Assembly: GCA_902582165.1 (NCBI GenBank)
Contig: CACHQZ010000001.1
Span: forward strand, 62,001-126,000
DNA length: 64,000 nucleotides
Direction of reading: 5' to 3'
Source of the DNA: an uncultured Pelagibacteraceae bacterium
Lineage (GTDB): Bacteria > Pseudomonadota > Alphaproteobacteria > Pelagibacterales > Pelagibacteraceae
This document shows, piece by piece, positions 25,008 to 56,660 of the stretch; position 1 is the stretch's first letter; each line of letters opens with the position of its first letter. The notes under the pieces are model-generated. The model was not told the origin of the DNA and ran no database searches. It saw only the letters and a program-made list of their open reading frames with translations. Position numbers and translations under genes: made by a program.

Positions 25008-26123
25008 ATGAAAAACATAATCAAAATAGCAATCGTTATGTTAACTTCAATTTCTTTATTCGGTTCAGCGTACGCTGGAACTTTAGGTGTAAGTGGTACA
25101 GCAAAAGCAACTTACAACATTAAAGGCGGTGACTCGACGAACACTGGTAAAGGATTAGGTATAACAAACGAATTGAACTTTACTGCTTCAGGTGAGCTTG
25201 ACAATGGTTACACATGGTCATACTCAATGGAGTTAGACCCAGGTGCTGTTAACGCAGCAGGTACTGCACAAGGTACAACTGGAGAAAACCAAGACGCACA
25301 AAACGATGATACTAAACTTACTTTATCGACTCCTTTCGGAACGATCGGTGTGTTTATATCAGAAGGTGGTTTAGATGCTGAAGATGCTGCATCTCAATCA
25401 GTGTACGCTAGACCTACAGATGCAGGTGACCCTTCATCTGGTGCAGGTGATAACTACACTATTGATTCATACAACAACTTCCAATACCACACGCCAGCAG
25501 ACATGCTACCTTTCGGTATTACTGCTAAAGTAGCATACGCTCCAGACTTACATACGTACGGTTCTGGAAATGCTTCTGGTGCAGCGTCAGCAATAACGAC
25601 TTCAGAAGATAATAATACTATCTATGTTGGTCGATCTGCTACGGAATACAGAGTAGATGCAGCTCCAATCGACGGATTAAAAATTGGTGCTTCATACTTT
25701 GAATTCGACGCAGCTGGAAGACCTGGTGCAAAATATAACAATACACCAGAATCTGGTGCATACTACGCAACATATGCAACAGGTCCATTCTCTTTTGGTT
25801 ACTCTAAAGCTTACAAGCAAGTAGGTGCTATAGACGGTGATTTAGGCGACACATCAACAGTTGACTACTATGACCAGACAAACTACTCAATTGCTTACGT
25901 AGCTTCAGATGACCTTTCAATTTCTTACGAAGTTGAGAAAGATGAGAGAAACATGCAAGCTTCAAGTGCAACTGTAATAGAGCAAGAGTCAAAAGGTATC
26001 CAAGTAGCTTATACTATGGGTGGAATGACTATTGCATTACACCACGGTAATTACGATGATACAGGTTACACAGCTAATAAATCTGTGGACCAAACGTTAT
26101 TCGCAGTTACAATGGCGTTCTAA
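25008..26123 (+). CDS. Outer-membrane porin
   Basis: The 371-residue protein has a Sec signal peptide (residues 1-23, cut after SAYA) and then alternating amphipathic beta strands rich in Gly, Tyr, Ser and Asp. It ends in VTMAF, whose terminal Phe is the usual signal for BAM assembly. Strands such as GELDNGYTWSYSMELDPG and IKIGASYFEF-like segments fit a 16-strand general porin. It is acidic and uses more C/G-ending codons than its neighbours, consistent with very high expression. A strong terminator follows. The substrate preference cannot be told. Confidence 0.92.
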   Translation: MKNIIKIAIVMLTSISLFGSAYAGTLGVSGTAKATYNIKGGDSTNTGKGLGITNELNFTASGELDNGYTWSYSMELDPGAVNAAGTAQGTTGENQDAQNDDTKLTLSTPFGTIGVFISEGGLDAEDAASQSVYARPTDAGDPSSGAGDNYTIDSYNNFQYHTPADMLPFGITAKVAYAPDLHTYGSGNASGAASAITTSEDNNTIYVGRSATEYRVDAAPIDGLKIGASYFEFDAAGRPGAKYNNTPESGAYYATYATGPFSFGYSKAYKQVGAIDGDLGDTSTVDYYDQTNYSIAYVASDDLSISYEVEKDERNMQASSATVIEQESKGIQVAYTMGGMTIALHHGNYDDTGYTANKSVDQTLFAVTMAF

Positions 26124-26141: not shown

Positions 26142-26714
26142 TTAAAAAAGCCGGCTAAATATTTTAGCCGGCTTTTTTTTTACCTCAGATAACAAAGCAA
26201 ATCCCTCAGAATTGGTATTTTTAAGACTATTCAAGTTACAAATCGTAATCCCACCTAGCGGTATGATTTTTTTATCAAATAAAAACTTTTTATTAAATTT
26301 TGTTATACCCATGTAAGAGGATTTTGGGTCGTAGCCTACTTTAAAAAGTTTTGATACTAGGATTATCTCGCATCCTTGTTTTTTTTTAAGTTCAATTTCA
26401 CTGTAATTATGAGCTGATCCTATAAAACTAAAATTTTTTCTTCTAAAACATAGATTCTTAAAACTCTTATTATATGATGAAATATAAAGTCCATCAGCCT
26501 TTATCAAAGTAGCTAAATTTGTGTCATTTGCTACAAAAAATTTTACTTTTTTAATCTTACAATCTTTTCTAAATTTATGGAGATCACTGGTTTTTTCTAT
26601 TTTTGATTTATTTCGATAAATAACGATAAATTTATTATATCTTTTTATATTTTTTATGTTTAAGTCTTTTATGCTTTCAATAATTAAATAATATTTATTT
26701 TTGTAGGCAAACAT
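26142..26714 (-). CDS. ThiE/TenI-like protein (thiamine-phosphate synthase superfamily)
   Basis: From the ATG at 26714 the product has 190 residues. It fits the ThiE/TenI barrel: VANDTNLATLIKADGLYISS near residues 75-94, GSAHNYSEIELKKKQGCEI near 112-130, LVSKLFKVGYDPKSSYMGI as the phosphate loop, and IIPLGGITICNL near 160. Motifs are degenerate compared with true ThiE, so catalysis is uncertain. Its final residues (AKIFSRLF) are encoded by the porin terminator. Its ATG abuts the divergent YggS-gene ATG with no intervening base. Confidence 0.65.
   Translation of the reverse strand: MFAYKNKYYLIIESIKDLNIKNIKRYNKFIVIYRNKSKIEKTSDLHKFRKDCKIKKVKFFVANDTNLATLIKADGLYISSYNKSFKNLCFRRKNFSFIGSAHNYSEIELKKKQGCEIILVSKLFKVGYDPKSSYMGITKFNKKFLFDKKIIPLGGITICNLNSLKNTNSEGFALLSEVKKKPAKIFSRLF
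26143..26180. terminator. Bidirectional intrinsic terminator after the porin
   Basis: AAAAAAGCCGGCTAAA (from 26145) pairs with TTTAGCCGGCTTTTTT across a short loop. This gives a GC-rich stem with U tracts on both strands. It serves the porin on the plus strand, and its sequence also encodes the last residues of the opposing ThiE-like gene. Confidence 0.92.
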
Positions 26715-50109: not shown

Positions 50110-51675
50110 ATGCTTGAAAAATATCTAAATAATCGTTTGTATACCTTATACTTTATTCCGTTTCTTCTTGGATTATTATCCGTATTTTCTTTTCAACCTT
50201 TTAACTTATCGATAATCAATTTTTTTTCATTACCTTTATTTTTTTTTATAATTATTTTTATTAAAAAGAAATCAAAAAGCACCTATAGAAAAAAACCTTA
50301 CAAAAAAAATTTATTTATATTTGGTACATTATTTGGTTTTGGATTTTATTTAGGAGGTATACACTGGATAACTAACTCTTTGACATTTGATGAAAACTTT
50401 AAGATTTTAATCCCGTTTAGTTTATTTTTAATCCCAATTTTTTTAAGTTTATTTTTTTCTTTAACTGTTTTGGTTGTTGGACCTTTCTTAAGTTTTAATT
50501 TGTCATCTATACTTATATTGTCGGGCGGGCTAGCTCTCTCTGATTATCTCAGAGCAAAGATTTTGACAGGTTTTCCATGGAATCTATGGGCTTATAGTTT
50601 TTCCTGGAGTGAGGAAATAATTCAAATACTGAATATCTCAGGTTTATTTGCTTTCAATTTGATTACAATTACAATATTTATGCTACCTGCAATATTTTTC
50701 TTCAAAATAACTTTGGCTAAAAAACTTTTTTACATTTCAATCGTGCCTATTACTCTTTTTGCATTTTATATCTATGGCAATTATTCAATAAACCAAAATC
50801 AAAAAAAATTAAATAAAATCGAAAAAAAGTATAATATAAAAGTTGTATCCCCAAATTTTCAGCTAGAGTACGGTTTAAATTTAGATGATATTAAATCAAG
50901 AGCAGAAAAATTAATACGCTATAGCGATCCAGATAAAAACTTAAAAACATTGTTTATCTGGCCAGAGGGTGTTTTTAGTGGATATGATTTTTTTGAAATT
51001 CAGCATTTGAAAAAAATTTTTTCAAAAAATTTTAGTTCTAATCATTTTATTTTATTTGGTGTAAATAGATTTGATGAAAAAGTGAACGGCACTTATAATA
51101 GTTTAGTAGTTGTAAATAATAGATTTGAAATTTTACAAGAATATAAAAAACAAAAACTTGTTCCCTTTGGAGAATTTTTGCCTTTTGAAAAACTGCTTAA
51201 TAAATTTGGTTTTAAAAAAATTACTGAGGGGCATGGATCTTTTTTAAAAGGCAATAATTTTGATTTGTTAAAAGTGGGTGAATTAAAAATTACTCCACTG
51301 ATTTGCTATGAAATTATTTTTACTGAACTACTACAACAAAATGACAAAAATTCAAATTTGATTATTAATATCTCTGAAGACGGATGGTTTGGAAATTCAA
51401 TTGGCCCTTATCAACATTTTGCTAAAAGTATTTATAGAGCAATTGAAAATAATTCCTTTTTAGTAAGATCGGCTAACAAGGGGATAACGGCAATTATTAA
51501 TAATAAAGGACAAATACTAAGAAAACTTAATCCTAAAGAGACAGGAAATATTGAGCTAGAATTACCTTTACTAAAAAGTAATAATAAAAATAAAAATGAT
51601 TTGATATTTTTTGTTCTTTTAATTACATATATTTTAACTTTTTATTTAAATAGAAAAAGAAATGACAAAAAATAG
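50110..51675 (+). CDS. lnt: Apolipoprotein N-acyltransferase
   Basis: The 521-residue membrane enzyme has a multi-helix N-terminal half (about 7 segments) and a nitrilase-like periplasmic domain. The catalytic Glu lies in [12 protein letters not shown] near residue 279, the Lys in [16 protein letters not shown] near 340-355, and the Cys in PLICYEIIF near 397-405. It adds the third acyl chain to lipoproteins, of which several are coded in this window. It overlaps metK by 14 bases. Confidence 0.96.
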
Positions 51676-52825
51676 CTACCTATTTACAAGCGAGTCTGTT
51701 TCAGAAGGTCATCCGGATAAAGTTTGTGATCGAATATCTGATATGGTTGTTGACTCATACTTATCTAAAGATCCTGTTTCGAGAGTAGCGTGTGAGACTT
51801 TAACAACAACTAATAAAGTAGTTTTAGCCGGTGAAACTAGGGGACCAAAGATAGAAAAAGATGAATTGATCAACAAAGTGAGGAACTGCATTAAAGATAT
51901 CGGTTATGACCAAGAAGGTTTTAGCTGGAAGACTGCTAAAATCGAAACATTTTTGCATGAACAATCATCAGATATTGCTATGGGTGTTGACTCTAAAGAT
52001 AACAAAGATGAAGGCGCAGGAGACCAAGGAATTATGTTTGGATATGCTTGCAAAGAAACTGAAGAATTGATGCCAGCTCCAATTTACTTTTCGCATAAAA
52101 TTTTAAGATTGATGGCCACAGACCGTAAAAAAGGATCTCTCACTGGAATAGAACCAGACTCTAAAAGCCAAGTTTCCATGCTTTATGAAAATAATAAACC
52201 TGTTAAAGTTACCTCTGTTGTAATATCTACACAACATTCTAAAGAGTTAAATCAGGAAAAAGTTAGAGAAAAAATTATCCCGTATATCCAAAAATCTATA
52301 CCACAAAAATATCTTGAAGATTTAGATCCAAAAGAAATTTATATTAATCCAACTGGACAATTTATAATTGGAGGACCCGATGGCGATACCGGATTAACTG
52401 GAAGAAAAATCATAGTTGACACATATGGCGGTGCAGCTCCACATGGTGGTGGTGCTTTTTCCGGAAAAGACCCTACAAAAGTTGATAGGTCAGCAGCATA
52501 CGCTTCTAGATATTTAGCTAAAAATATTGTTGCTGCCGGGGTTTCAGAAAAGTGCTTAATCCAACTAGCATACGCAATTGGAGTATCAAAACCACTTTCA
52601 ATATTTATCAAATTAGCAGATAAGGACGAGGCTAAAGTTAAGAAAATTAAAGATTTGATAAATAAAAATTTTGATCTTTCTCCTAGAGGGATAAGAGAAA
52701 TGCTAAATTTAAATAATCCCATTTATGAGGTCACTTCAGCCTACGGACACTTTGGTCGAAAACCCTCTAATAATGGTGAATTTTCTTGGGAAAAAACTGA
52801 TAAAGTCGATTTATTTAAACTGTAA
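51662..52825 (+). CDS. metK: S-adenosylmethionine synthetase
   Basis: The 387-residue enzyme opens with [20 protein letters not shown] (His and Asp of the active site) and has [12 protein letters not shown] near residues 117-128 and [20 protein letters not shown] near 259-278, the loop that binds triphosphate. It makes SAM. I see no SAM riboswitch upstream; the gene starts inside lnt. A terminator follows before nusA. Confidence 0.99.
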
Positions 52826-52827
52826 TC

Positions 52828-52856
52828 TTGAAAAAACCATAAATTTCTTTTAATAA
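52828..52856 (+). promoter_or_regulatory. Possible nusA promoter
   Basis: TTGAAA (52828-52833) is followed after exactly 17 bases by TAATAA (52851-52856), close to sigma-70 consensus. The -10 overlaps the left arm of an 11-bp inverted repeat. The predicted transcript would start at about 52863, before the terminator at 52879. Confidence 0.4.
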
Positions 52857-52874
52857 TGTTTTACATTATTAAAA
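52848..52874. repeat. 11-bp perfect inverted repeat between metK and nusA
   Basis: TTTTAATAATG (52848-52858), loop TTTTA, CATTATTAAAA (52864-52874). The two arms are perfect complements. It lies immediately upstream of a GC-rich terminator hairpin, so two hairpins stand in tandem. Confidence 0.75.
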
Positions 52875-52878
52875 TTTC

Positions 52879-52905
52879 AAAATGGGCACTAGCCCATTTT
52901 TTTTT
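52879..52905 (+). terminator. Intrinsic terminator between metK and nusA
   Basis: AAAATGGGC, loop ACTA, GCCCATTTT (52879-52900) followed by five more T. A strong rho-independent terminator for the metK operon. The nusA ribosome-binding site AGGAG (52906-52910) follows with no gap, so it may also act as a leader attenuator. Confidence 0.9.
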
Positions 52906-52921
52906 AGGAGTATTGAAAATA

Positions 52922-54475
52922 ATGCTAAATAAAGGATTAGATAAGTTAGAACTGTTAAGAATAGTAGAAGCTGTAGCTAACGAGAAATCGATAGATAAAG
53001 AGCTAGTGATCGACTCTATGGAAAGTGCTATCCAAAAGGCTGCATTAACTAAATTTGGAAACGATAATAACATCGAGGTTATGATTGACAGAGAGAGTGG
53101 AGAAATAAAAATACAGAAAGTCTTAAATATTGTAGAAAACGTTGAAGATCCCTTTAGAGAAATAACACTTGGAAGCGCTATAAAAATTAACAAAGAAAAT
53201 TCATCTCTCAAGGTTGGAGATAAAATTTATGAAGAGCTACCACAAATTGATTTCGGGAGAATAGCTGCGCAGAGTGCTAAACAAGTAATTAGTAGTAGAG
53301 TAAGAGAGGCAGAAAAAAATAGACAGTACGACGACTTTATAGATAAACAAGGACAAATATTAAGCGGTATCATTAAAAGGCTTGAATACGGAAATGTTAT
53401 TGTTGACCTTGGAAAAGCAGAGGGAGTTATAAAAAAAGATGAATTAATACCTAGGGAGATTTTAAAAACTGGTGATAGAGTAAAAGCTTACTGCTATGAG
53501 GTTAAAAAGGAGCTTAAAGGTCATCAAATTTTTCTCTCTAGAGCACACCCGCAATTTTTAGCTAAACTTTTTTTTCAAGAAGTGCCAGAAATCTACGAAG
53601 GCACAATTGAAATCAAGTCGGTTGCTAGAGATCCTGGTAGTAGGGCAAAAATTTGTGTTCATTCGCAAGATTCTTCAATAGATCCAGTTGGGGCATGTGT
53701 AGGTATGAGAGGAAGTAGAGTTCAAACAATTGTGAATGAGCTTCATGGAGAAAAAATTGATATTATAAAATGGACAGAAGATCTTCCTACATTAATATCC
53801 GAGTCATTATCACCAGCAGAAATTCAGAAAGTTCTAATTGATCAAGAAAATAAAAGAATAGATATTATTCTTACAGAGGAAAATTTAAGTAAAGCAATTG
53901 GAAGAAGAGGTCAGAATGTGAGACTGGCATCTAAGCTAACCAATTATGAAATTGATATTCTTACAGACAAGGAGGACTCAGAAAGAAGACAAGCTGAGTT
54001 TAAAGAAAGAACTGAAACATTAATAAAAAATTTAGAAGTCGATGAAACACTGGGTCAACTTTTAGTGTCCGAGGGTTTCAATTCAATTGAAGAAATATCT
54101 CAATCGTCCCCAGAAGATATTTCAAAAATAGAAGCTATTGATGAAGAAACTGCAAAAGAACTTATCTCTAGATCTAAAGATACTTTAATTAAAGAGATAG
54201 AAGTAGTTGCAAATAAATTAAAAGAACTCGGTGTGGAAGAAGAATTAATTAATTTAAAAGGTATGACCCAAGGAATGTTAGTTATACTTGGTCAAAAAAA
54301 TATTAAGAGACTGAGTGATTTTGCTGATTTATCATCAGATGAACTAATCGGAGGATTTGACGAGATAAAAGGAAAAAAGATCCGTATCGAAGGATATCTT
54401 GAAGAATTTTCACTCTCGAGAAAAGAAGCAGATGAATTAATAATGGCAGCTAGAGAAATAGCTTACAAACAATAA
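52922..54475 (+). CDS. nusA: Transcription termination/antitermination factor NusA
   Basis: The 517-residue protein has the RNA-polymerase-binding N-domain, an S1 domain (GIIKRLEYGNVIVDLGKAEG near residue 145), KH1 and KH2 (KICVHSQDSS, GACVGMRGSRVQTIVNEL; SKAIGRRGQNVRLASKL) and C-terminal helix-hairpin-helix acidic repeats. I use the ATG at 52922, after AGGAG; an in-frame ATG at 52856 would sit before the terminator. rimP, usually upstream, is absent. infB follows in 4 bases. Confidence 0.98.
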   Translation: MLNKGLDKLELLRIVEAVANEKSIDKELVIDSMESAIQKAALTKFGNDNNIEVMIDRESGEIKIQKVLNIVENVEDPFREITLGSAIKINKENSSLKVGDKIYEELPQIDFGRIAAQSAKQVISSRVREAEKNRQYDDFIDKQGQILSGIIKRLEYGNVIVDLGKAEGVIKKDELIPREILKTGDRVKAYCYEVKKELKGHQIFLSRAHPQFLAKLFFQEVPEIYEGTIEIKSVARDPGSRAKICVHSQDSSIDPVGACVGMRGSRVQTIVNELHGEKIDIIKWTEDLPTLISESLSPAEIQKVLIDQENKRIDIILTEENLSKAIGRRGQNVRLASKLTNYEIDILTDKEDSERRQAEFKERTETLIKNLEVDETLGQLLVSEGFNSIEEISQSSPEDISKIEAIDEETAKELISRSKDTLIKEIEVVANKLKELGVEEELINLKGMTQGMLVILGQKNIKRLSDFADLSSDELIGGFDEIKGKKIRIEGYLEEFSLSRKEADELIMAAREIAYKQ

Positions 54476-54479
54476 TGAT

Positions 54480-56660
54480 ATGGATAAAAAAAAGAAAACA
54501 CTTACAATTTCTTCTAATTTAAAAAAAAAAATAGATCCTAAAACAATACCGACCGACGGAAAAAAATCTTTTTCTGTAGAAAAGAAAAAATCATTTAAAA
54601 CCAATAAACCGTTCAACCGATCAAACAGTGCAAGCAATCTAAGCTTAAATCAAGATAACAGAAAGAAAAATTTTGCTAGGAAAATGATTGAACAGCAAGC
54701 TACTAAAGATTTTATTAAAAAAGATAGTAAACCTTCGGGAAAAAGTAAGTTAAAGCTCAAAAATCCGGTAGATAAGAGAGATTTTAAGCTTACAGTTTCA
54801 AGAGCTTTAAATGTTGAGGAAATTGAAATTAAGCAAAGAAGTTTAGCTTCTGTCAAGCGAGCTAGACTGAAAGATAAAAAAAATAAACCTGAAACAGATG
54901 AAAAGAAAGAATTCAAAAAAGTAATTAAGGAAGTAAAAATACCAGAACAAATAACAATTCAAGAACTTTCAAACAGAATGGCTGAAAAGTCCAACGAAAT
55001 AATTAAGTTTTTGTTAAATATGAAAGTGGTTGCAACAATTAATCACAATATAGATAAAGATACCGCAGAATATATCGTTAAGGAATTTGGACATAAACCA
55101 ATTCTAGAGGAAAATCCCAACCTACAGAGCAATAAGAAAGAAGAAAAGATTGGTGGAGAAGTTAAAATAAGGCCACCTATTGTCACTATAATGGGACATG
55201 TTGATCACGGTAAAACCTCATTATTAGACTCATTAAGACAAACTAATGTCGTATCAAGTGAGCATGGAGGTATTACTCAACATATAGGTGCTTACCAGGT
55301 CAAAGCTGATAATGAAAAATTGATTACATTTATAGACACTCCTGGACACGCAGCTTTCACTGAGATGCGTGCAAGAGGCTCTAAAATAACAGACATAGTC
55401 GTATTAGTTGTTGCTGCTGACGACGGTATAAAGCCACAAACTGTTGAAGCCATAAAACATGCTAAAGCTGCTAACGTACCTATAATAGTCGCTATTAATA
55501 AGTGTGATTTACCAAATAAAAATATTAGCAAAATTAAAAATGAAATGATGCAATATGAACTAATATCAGAGGATTTAAGCGGTGATACGCTATTCGTTGA
55601 AGTTTCAGCCTTGAAAAAATTAAACTTGGATAAACTAAAAGAGAGTATATTACTTCAATCAGAAATATTAGACTTAAAAGCCTCATACTCAGATAGTGCG
55701 CGAGGAATAGTAATTGAGTCTAAAATTGATAAAGGAAAAGGACCTGTTTCTACAGTGCTTATAAGCAATGGAAAACTTAAGAAAGGAGATTTTTTTATCT
55801 GTGGAGATACTATGGGAAAAGTCAGAGCAATGATTAATTATGAGGGAAAAATTATTGATAATGCATATCCATCTATGCCGGTTGAAATATTGGGAATGAA
55901 CAGTTCTGCTTATGCTGGCGCTGAATTTGTTGTTACAAAAGATGAAGAAGAAGCAAAAGAAATGGTAGAATTTAAGAAAAATAATTTGGTAAGCAATAAA
56001 ATTCTCGCTAAAGATAAAACAACACTTTTTGAAAAAGCAAAAGATAAAGACGAATTAAATATTGTAATAAAATCTGATGTACAAGGATCAAGCGAAGCTT
56101 TAAAGATGGCAATAGATAATATAAAGCATGACGAAGTCGAGGCCAAGATTATATTATCAGATATTGGCATGATTAATGAGACTGATGTATCTTTAGCAAA
56201 AGCATCTAATGCGATATTAATTGGATTTAATGTTAAGCCTAATAGAGAAGCAAAGAAACTAGCAGAAGAACAAAAAATTGAAATTAAATATTTCAATATT
56301 ATATATGAAGCAATAGATTTTGTTGAGAAATCTCTATCTGGTCTTTTAGAGCCAGACATTAAAGAAACTGTTTTGGGAAGCGCAGAAATTAAGAAAATAT
56401 TTAAAGTATCAAATGCTGGTAAAATAGCTGGATCAAAAGTTATTAGTGGAGAAATAAAAAGTAAGTCCAAAGCAAGAATTATTAGAGATGGTGTTGTCGT
56501 TTACAACGGTGAGATTTCAACGATTTATAGGGAGAAAAATCAAGTTAAAGAGGTTGGCTCAGGTTTAGAATGTGGGATTAGTGTTAAAGATTTTATCGAT
56601 TTTAAAGAAAAAGACTTAATCGAGTCCTACCTATCTGAGGAAGTCAGGAGGTCAATATAA
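54480..56660 (+). CDS. infB: Translation initiation factor IF-2
   Basis: The 726-residue GTPase brings fMet-tRNA to the 30S subunit. A Lys-rich N-terminal region of about 150 residues precedes an IF2-N-like segment ([20 protein letters not shown]), then the G domain with [14 protein letters not shown] near residue 236 and NKCD near 342, and the C2 domain ending. It is short at the N-terminus compared with E. coli. ylxR between nusA and infB is missing. It overlaps rbfA by one base. Confidence 0.98.

Follow-up and report, generated by a model that had tools for sequence, protein, structure and literature searches.

A predicted rimP-leader type attenuator directly before nusA in SAR11 bacteria without detectable rimP

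Introduction

What could a terminator do between a promoter and the start of nusA? The question is raised by the metK-nusA spacer of the window, which is the whole stretch of DNA analysed here (64,000 nt of contig CACHQZ010000001.1, assembly GCA_902582165.1, from an uncultured Pelagibacteraceae, or SAR11, bacterium) and part of a 954-kb genome of 33 contigs that is 84.77% complete. An initial annotation had placed a possible promoter, an inverted repeat and a terminator in this spacer and suggested that they could form a negative feedback attenuator at nusA, a main idea that is probably right.

Attenuators of this kind are already known. The rimP-leader, with its signature GGGc...gCCC stem, was described as an attenuator of rimP-nusA-infB operons, its stem motif being common to Firmicutes and Gammaproteobacteria; NusA was proposed as the effector, RimP was also considered and the choice was left open in 2010 (Naville and Gautheret 2010, PMC2965389). 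According to a review, transcription into B. subtilis nusA is governed by termination in the nusA leader, which NusA stimulates (PMC12288461). In the S. agalactiae operon gbs0413-0418 (rimP-nusA-infB), RNA-seq showed that one start gives rise to both short and long RNAs and that termination occurs 31 nt downstream of it (PMC4448216). NusA feedback has been proposed for the operons of both E. coli and S. agalactiae (PMC2965389, PMC4448216). The new part of the present case is the leader that is kept where rimP is missing.

Results

Parts of the nusA leader in the window

The spacer measures 96 nt, from the metK stop at 52825 to the nusA ATG at 52922. The features of the region were as follows.

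51662 to 52825, plus strand: metK, directly upstream of the nusA leader in the window's genus (Pfam)
52828 to 52833, plus strand: -35-like box TTGAAA of the presumed nusA promoter (TTGA conserved in other leaders)
52848 to 52874, no strand: perfect inverted repeat of 12 bp with loop TTT, judged to lie outside the conserved device
52851 to 52856, plus strand: -10-like box TAATAA, 17 nt 3' of TTGAAA (first T and second A conserved in other leaders)
52879 to 52905, plus strand: leader terminator hairpin and nine-T run, with a GGGC...GCCC stem of the rimP-leader type (conservation)
52906 to 52910, plus strand: AGGAG, presumed nusA ribosome-binding site, directly 3' of the T-run (sequence)
52922 to 54475, plus strand: nusA, with domains NusA_N, S1 and KH (Pfam)
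54480 to 56660, plus strand: infB (IF-2), the next gene behind the attenuator (Pfam)

The arms of the terminator, AAAATGGGC (52879-52887) and GCCCATTTT (52892-52900), enclose the loop ACTA, and the nine T occupy positions 52897-52905. The initial annotation had described a strong terminator followed by the nusA ribosome-binding site; the hairpin and the directly adjoining AGGAG were borne out, but the stem is of moderate strength, at -10.4 kcal/mol in the genome scan and -11.9 kcal/mol as a 42-nt RNA. For the stretch of about 42 nt from about 52863 to the end of the T-run, the minimum-energy fold was the hairpin alone, at the latter energy.

Taken singly, this sequence is weak evidence, because promoter- and terminator-like sites were no commoner than in shuffled DNA: 18 promoter-like sites were observed in 5 kb against a mean of 19.0 in shuffles, and one terminator-like site against 1.9 expected. 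The promoter was no better than chance in such AT-rich DNA, and the case therefore rests on comparison.

Conservation across SAR11

A sample of 159 nusA loci of Pelagibacteraceae was compiled, the window included and some genomes being present twice. In 155 of them the sequence covered the start of nusA together with the preceding 110 nt, which gave 126 distinct leaders, including that of the window; four loci were unusable. These leaders came from 12 of the 14 sampled genera, nusA being not found or cut off in the other two. Two copies of nusA were themselves irregular, through either a sequencing error or a real break: the gene was apparently split into two frames in G108 (L163 and L166, G108:C9) and had an internal stop in G224 (G224:C3:2653-3936).

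In each of the 126 distinct leaders there was a single GGGC-N-GCCC with T after it. Its loop was invariably 4 nt long, in 27 different sequences, and the T-run had nine residues in 125 leaders and ten in one. The pair next outward of GGGC/GCCC was T-A in 121 and mismatched (TT or CT) in five, so that the four-pair core is the constant part. Mean stem energy was -11.1 kcal/mol. From the end of the T-run to the nusA ATG there were 10-24 nt in every leader, within the 4 to 130 nt of the rimP-leader criterion. The hairpin was conserved across genera in which NusA identity fell to 62%.

For the promoter, the arrangement TTGAAA-17-TAATAA given in the initial annotation was present between metK and nusA, and TTGA was found in register, 42-62 nt before the hairpin GGGC, in 122 of the 126 distinct leaders, compared with a mean of 22.65 in shuffles. 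Nearly all TTGA occurrences (120/123) lay 54-58 nt before GGGC. In the hexamer 17 nt downstream of TTGA, T was first in 99 and A second in 106 of 122. As far as sequence comparison can tell, the promoter-like site and the terminator are confirmed as real and conserved. Conservation across the 12 readable genera supports the further proposal that a nusA transcript from this promoter would have to read through the terminator.

The inverted repeat fared differently. A perfect repeat overlapping the -10 does exist (arms 52848-52859 and 52863-52874), with a length of 12 bp and not the 11 bp first given; when the 51-nt stretch 52826-52876 was shuffled 5000 times, a repeat of at least 11 bp arose in 23 cases. 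The 12-bp repeat was absent from the other 125 distinct leaders, in which the longest perfect repeat was 9 bp. Conservation of both hairpins had been named as a check in the initial annotation: it held for the terminator (126/126), but the inverted repeat occurred in the window alone (1/126) and was rejected as a conserved second hairpin. It is best read, from its distribution, as a product of chance in AT-rich DNA.

When the entire spacer was folded, its minimum-energy structure offered a candidate antiterminator, in which TCTTGAAAAA, from the 5' part of the spacer, paired with the T-run and AGGA. This pairing was not favoured, because an RNA starting near 52863 would exclude TCTTGAAAAA and because loci with a trmB-type gene before nusA (described below) keep a TTGA- or TTGT-like box without that stretch, as judged by eye.

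Match to the rimP-leader class

Thirty rimP loci of other alphaproteobacteria, retrieved from a set of 99 rimP-carrying genomes, were examined over the 200 nt that precede the RimP_N match. A GGGC...G(C/T)CC stem flanked by two outer pairs and followed by a T-rich tail preceded rimP in 22 of the 30, against a background of 2 in 1545 other stretches of the same loci; 17 of the 30 matched a stricter stem pattern. In E. coli K-12 the corresponding element reads GGGC-TTTAG-GCCC-T7, with the last T of the run 17 nt upstream of the annotated start of rimP. In 20 aligned alphaproteobacterial leaders, 140 of 140 cells paired, and the fifth pair was U-A, U-G or C-G. The sixth pair was G-C in all 22 of the other alphaproteobacterial leaders versus A-T in 124 of the 126 from SAR11. 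A loop that is always 4 nt and a T-run of 9-10 also set the SAR11 leaders apart from the published class.

A leader model was built from the 20 alphaproteobacterial rimP leaders, with no SAR11 sequence included. Over 463 kb of the window's own genome the hairpin of the window ranked highest (21.1 bits, E 0.0087), but the model separates poorly, since an ordinary terminator came next at 20.3 bits, just 0.8 bits below. Seven of the eight rimP loci that had failed the stem criterion gave a match to this model at E below 1 (12.2 to 30.5 bits); the eighth, L192, gave none. The E. coli leader matched weakly (11.8 bits, E 0.8), at the right place.

With the Rfam model RF01770, which is gammaproteobacterial, the window hairpin scored 13.3 bits against a gathering cut-off of 47. 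Searches of the window for a riboswitch or other known RNA family returned nothing at Rfam gathering cut-offs, and permissive searches gave sub-cut-off matches only. The assignment made here covers the rimP-leader RNA element and not the rimP operon; rimP belongs to the host operon, from which the class takes its name.

Comparison with other terminators of the same genome

A scan of 463 kb of the window's own genome, window included, found 31 terminator-like hairpins with an energy of -7 kcal/mol or lower. Of the 18 outside open frames, 16 had energies of -13.0 to -18.9 kcal/mol; the weak nusA stem, at -10.4, is as expected of a NusA-sensitive site.

Two control terminators between co-directional genes were followed through relatives within the genus. 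The first lies behind a gene for an NMT1-like binding protein and before DctM; the second follows the gene for a periplasmic binding protein and precedes that for a branched-chain amino-acid permease (L237:6434-6459 and L242:18162-18187). The 30 best matches per gene were taken from the 51 and 53 genomes with a match, and hence represent the closest relatives; 29 and 30 control loci were readable, own genome included, one of the first set being cut by a contig end. Among these best matches, both control stems were nearly invariant, control 1 mostly with a T9 run, and the control proteins were 95-100% identical and thus more conserved than NusA. Stem invariance within the genus is therefore not special to nusA, and an invariant stem by itself was dropped as a sign of sequence recognition. 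What seems special to the nusA hairpin, as read from the alignments, is its conservation across genera, its tie to nusA and its match to the rimP-leader.

Several further observations were made on terminators of this genome. The two controls could act as partial terminators, holding the amount of membrane protein below that of binding protein. At L245:7137-7170, after an ammonium transporter gene, a strong hairpin with a long T-run is followed by GGAAAAT. The window gene at 25008-26123 was left out as a control, being hypervariable: it had a match in 48 of 61 genomes, own included, and its best relative in the genus sample was 66% identical, most others far less. The bidirectional terminator at 26147-26175 adjoins this fast-changing locus.

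The conserved terminators behind binding-protein genes bear on the idea that the nusA hairpin is a constitutive partial terminator, which would fix a low output of the nusA operon without NusA feedback. Such a reading also accords with the lack of a sensor structure and with the near-constant stem and T9, and the sequence offers no proof that read-through is set by NusA and not by a fixed property of the terminator. We nevertheless consider it unlikely: the stem is weak, its special motif is one that Firmicutes and Gammaproteobacteria have in common (PMC2965389), and NusA feedback has been reported for B. subtilis and suggested for E. coli and S. agalactiae (PMC12288461, PMC2965389, PMC4448216). 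NusA-dependent attenuation remains the preferred reading.

Association of the hairpin with nusA

Gene order separated the hairpin from metK. A gene for a methyltransferase that we take to be TrmB stood immediately upstream of nusA in 11 loci from four genera (L149-L152, L155-L161); Pfam Methyltransf_4 was confirmed in both loci tested, L156 and L158 (2 of 11). In L156-L161, the trmB-type loci reaching that far, metK lay further upstream. In the window's genus the trmB-type gene is not at the spot directly before nusA. The hairpin was still directly before nusA in all loci preceded by the trmB-type gene and, in staying with nusA, behaves unlike a terminator belonging to metK.

This observation weighs against the view that the hairpin is the ordinary terminator of the upstream metK operon, with nusA transcribed either through incomplete termination or from a start of its own and the closeness of the hairpin explained by the tiny size of spacers. 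Terminators do lie close before the next co-directional gene elsewhere in the genome, and the two that were followed are also conserved. Such a terminator would, however, have to account for the same stem before rimP in 22 of the 30 other alphaproteobacterial loci, for a conserved promoter-like site upstream of the hairpin and for a distance of just 10-24 nt between T-run and ATG. On this evidence an origin as a metK terminator seems improbable, and the hairpin is taken to be part of the nusA leader.

Absence of detectable rimP

Pfam RimP_N (PF02576) was found in 0 of 118 Pelagibacteraceae genomes and in 0 of 117 Pelagibacterales genomes, including 0 of 75 of high quality. Across the class 99 of 115 genomes had the domain, as did 10 of 14 control genomes. 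There was also no room for rimP between hairpin and nusA in the 126 leaders. From these searches, Pelagibacterales apparently lost rimP, which encodes a 30S maturation factor, and kept the attenuator directly on nusA. A SAR11 rimP may instead be too diverged for detection, though not between leader and nusA.

Sixteen genomes of the class sample were without RimP_N. Two were Pelagibacteraceae; of the other 14, 11 had a nusA match, with starts estimated. In three of these 11 a hairpin with G-rich and C-rich arms and a T-rich tail stood shortly before nusA (L309, L311 and L313, with 22.3, 24.1 and 17.3 bits in the leader model), and among the 11 examined the others had no clear hairpin at this place. 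Retention of the leader without rimP therefore holds in all SAR11 leaders read and is no general rule.

The missing gene narrows the choice of effector. RimP has been considered as a possible effector (PMC2965389), but with RimP_N absent from all 117 Pelagibacterales genomes it cannot be that of SAR11, unless too diverged to detect. More broadly, a different effector (RimP, IF2, S15 or NusG) might act on the leader, or the hairpin might mainly protect the 5' end of the mRNA or tune translation at the adjacent ribosome-binding site, as its position abutting AGGAG could suggest; the conserved T9 run, however, is explained by termination and not by translation control, and these options are very improbable. 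Since a large lineage without detectable rimP keeps the leader, NusA is favoured over RimP as the effector.

Discussion

By computation, the parts of the SAR11 leader, their conservation and their tie to nusA were established, and rimP was not detected. We consider it likely, by analogy with the published systems, that the spacer combines a nusA promoter with an attenuator of the rimP-leader type through which NusA represses its own synthesis. The transcription start, termination and the role of NusA as effector in SAR11 are likewise proposed. The RNA would begin near 52863, some 7 nt beyond the -10, and after about 40 nt it would fold into the GGGC-N4-GCCC hairpin, followed by nine U. NusA on RNA polymerase, in the early elongation complex, would then stimulate release at the T9 run. 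When NusA is plentiful, most transcripts would end as a leader RNA of about 42 nt; when it is scarce, polymerase would continue past the hairpin into nusA, infB and the genes downstream of them. No antiterminator or ligand would be needed.

The proposed scheme is close to that of B. subtilis, where read-through of the leader terminator decides nusA transcription (Mondal et al. 2016, as reviewed in PMC12288461); there autoregulation was shown experimentally, whereas for SAR11 we infer it. The S. agalactiae leader resembles that of SAR11 in a terminator close to the start and differs in that rimP is present and RNA-seq support exists (PMC4448216). With the general form of the rimP-leader as published, the SAR11 element shares a short terminator with a GGGc...gCCC stem and a U-run, its location a short distance ahead of the first operon gene, and the lack of an antiterminator; it differs in that no rimP was found, the leader stands directly before nusA and the score in Rfam is below the cut-off. 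The leader of the E. coli metY-rimP-nusA-infB operon has the same GGGC...GCCC stem and T-run, there before rimP, but differs from that of SAR11 in a second terminator-like hairpin just upstream and in the rimP gene that follows.

Among the matches listed, no paper title dealt with a SAR11 nusA leader or with rimP loss in SAR11, although the supplementary predictions of PMC2965389 may include the present leader. The main text of a paper on structured RNAs of SAR11 (PMC2704228) makes no mention of nus genes or metK.

On balance, we favour the view that the leader outlived rimP, selection having kept hairpin and promoter on nusA through a change of gene order. The lineage would then amount to a natural deletion experiment, suggesting that the device senses NusA and that even a streamlined lineage still pays for NusA feedback. 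The SAR11 leader provides an independent line of evidence, beside the work on B. subtilis, on the effector of the rimP-leader. For SAR11 itself, the predicted leader RNA of about 42 nt adds a concrete, testable candidate regulatory RNA.
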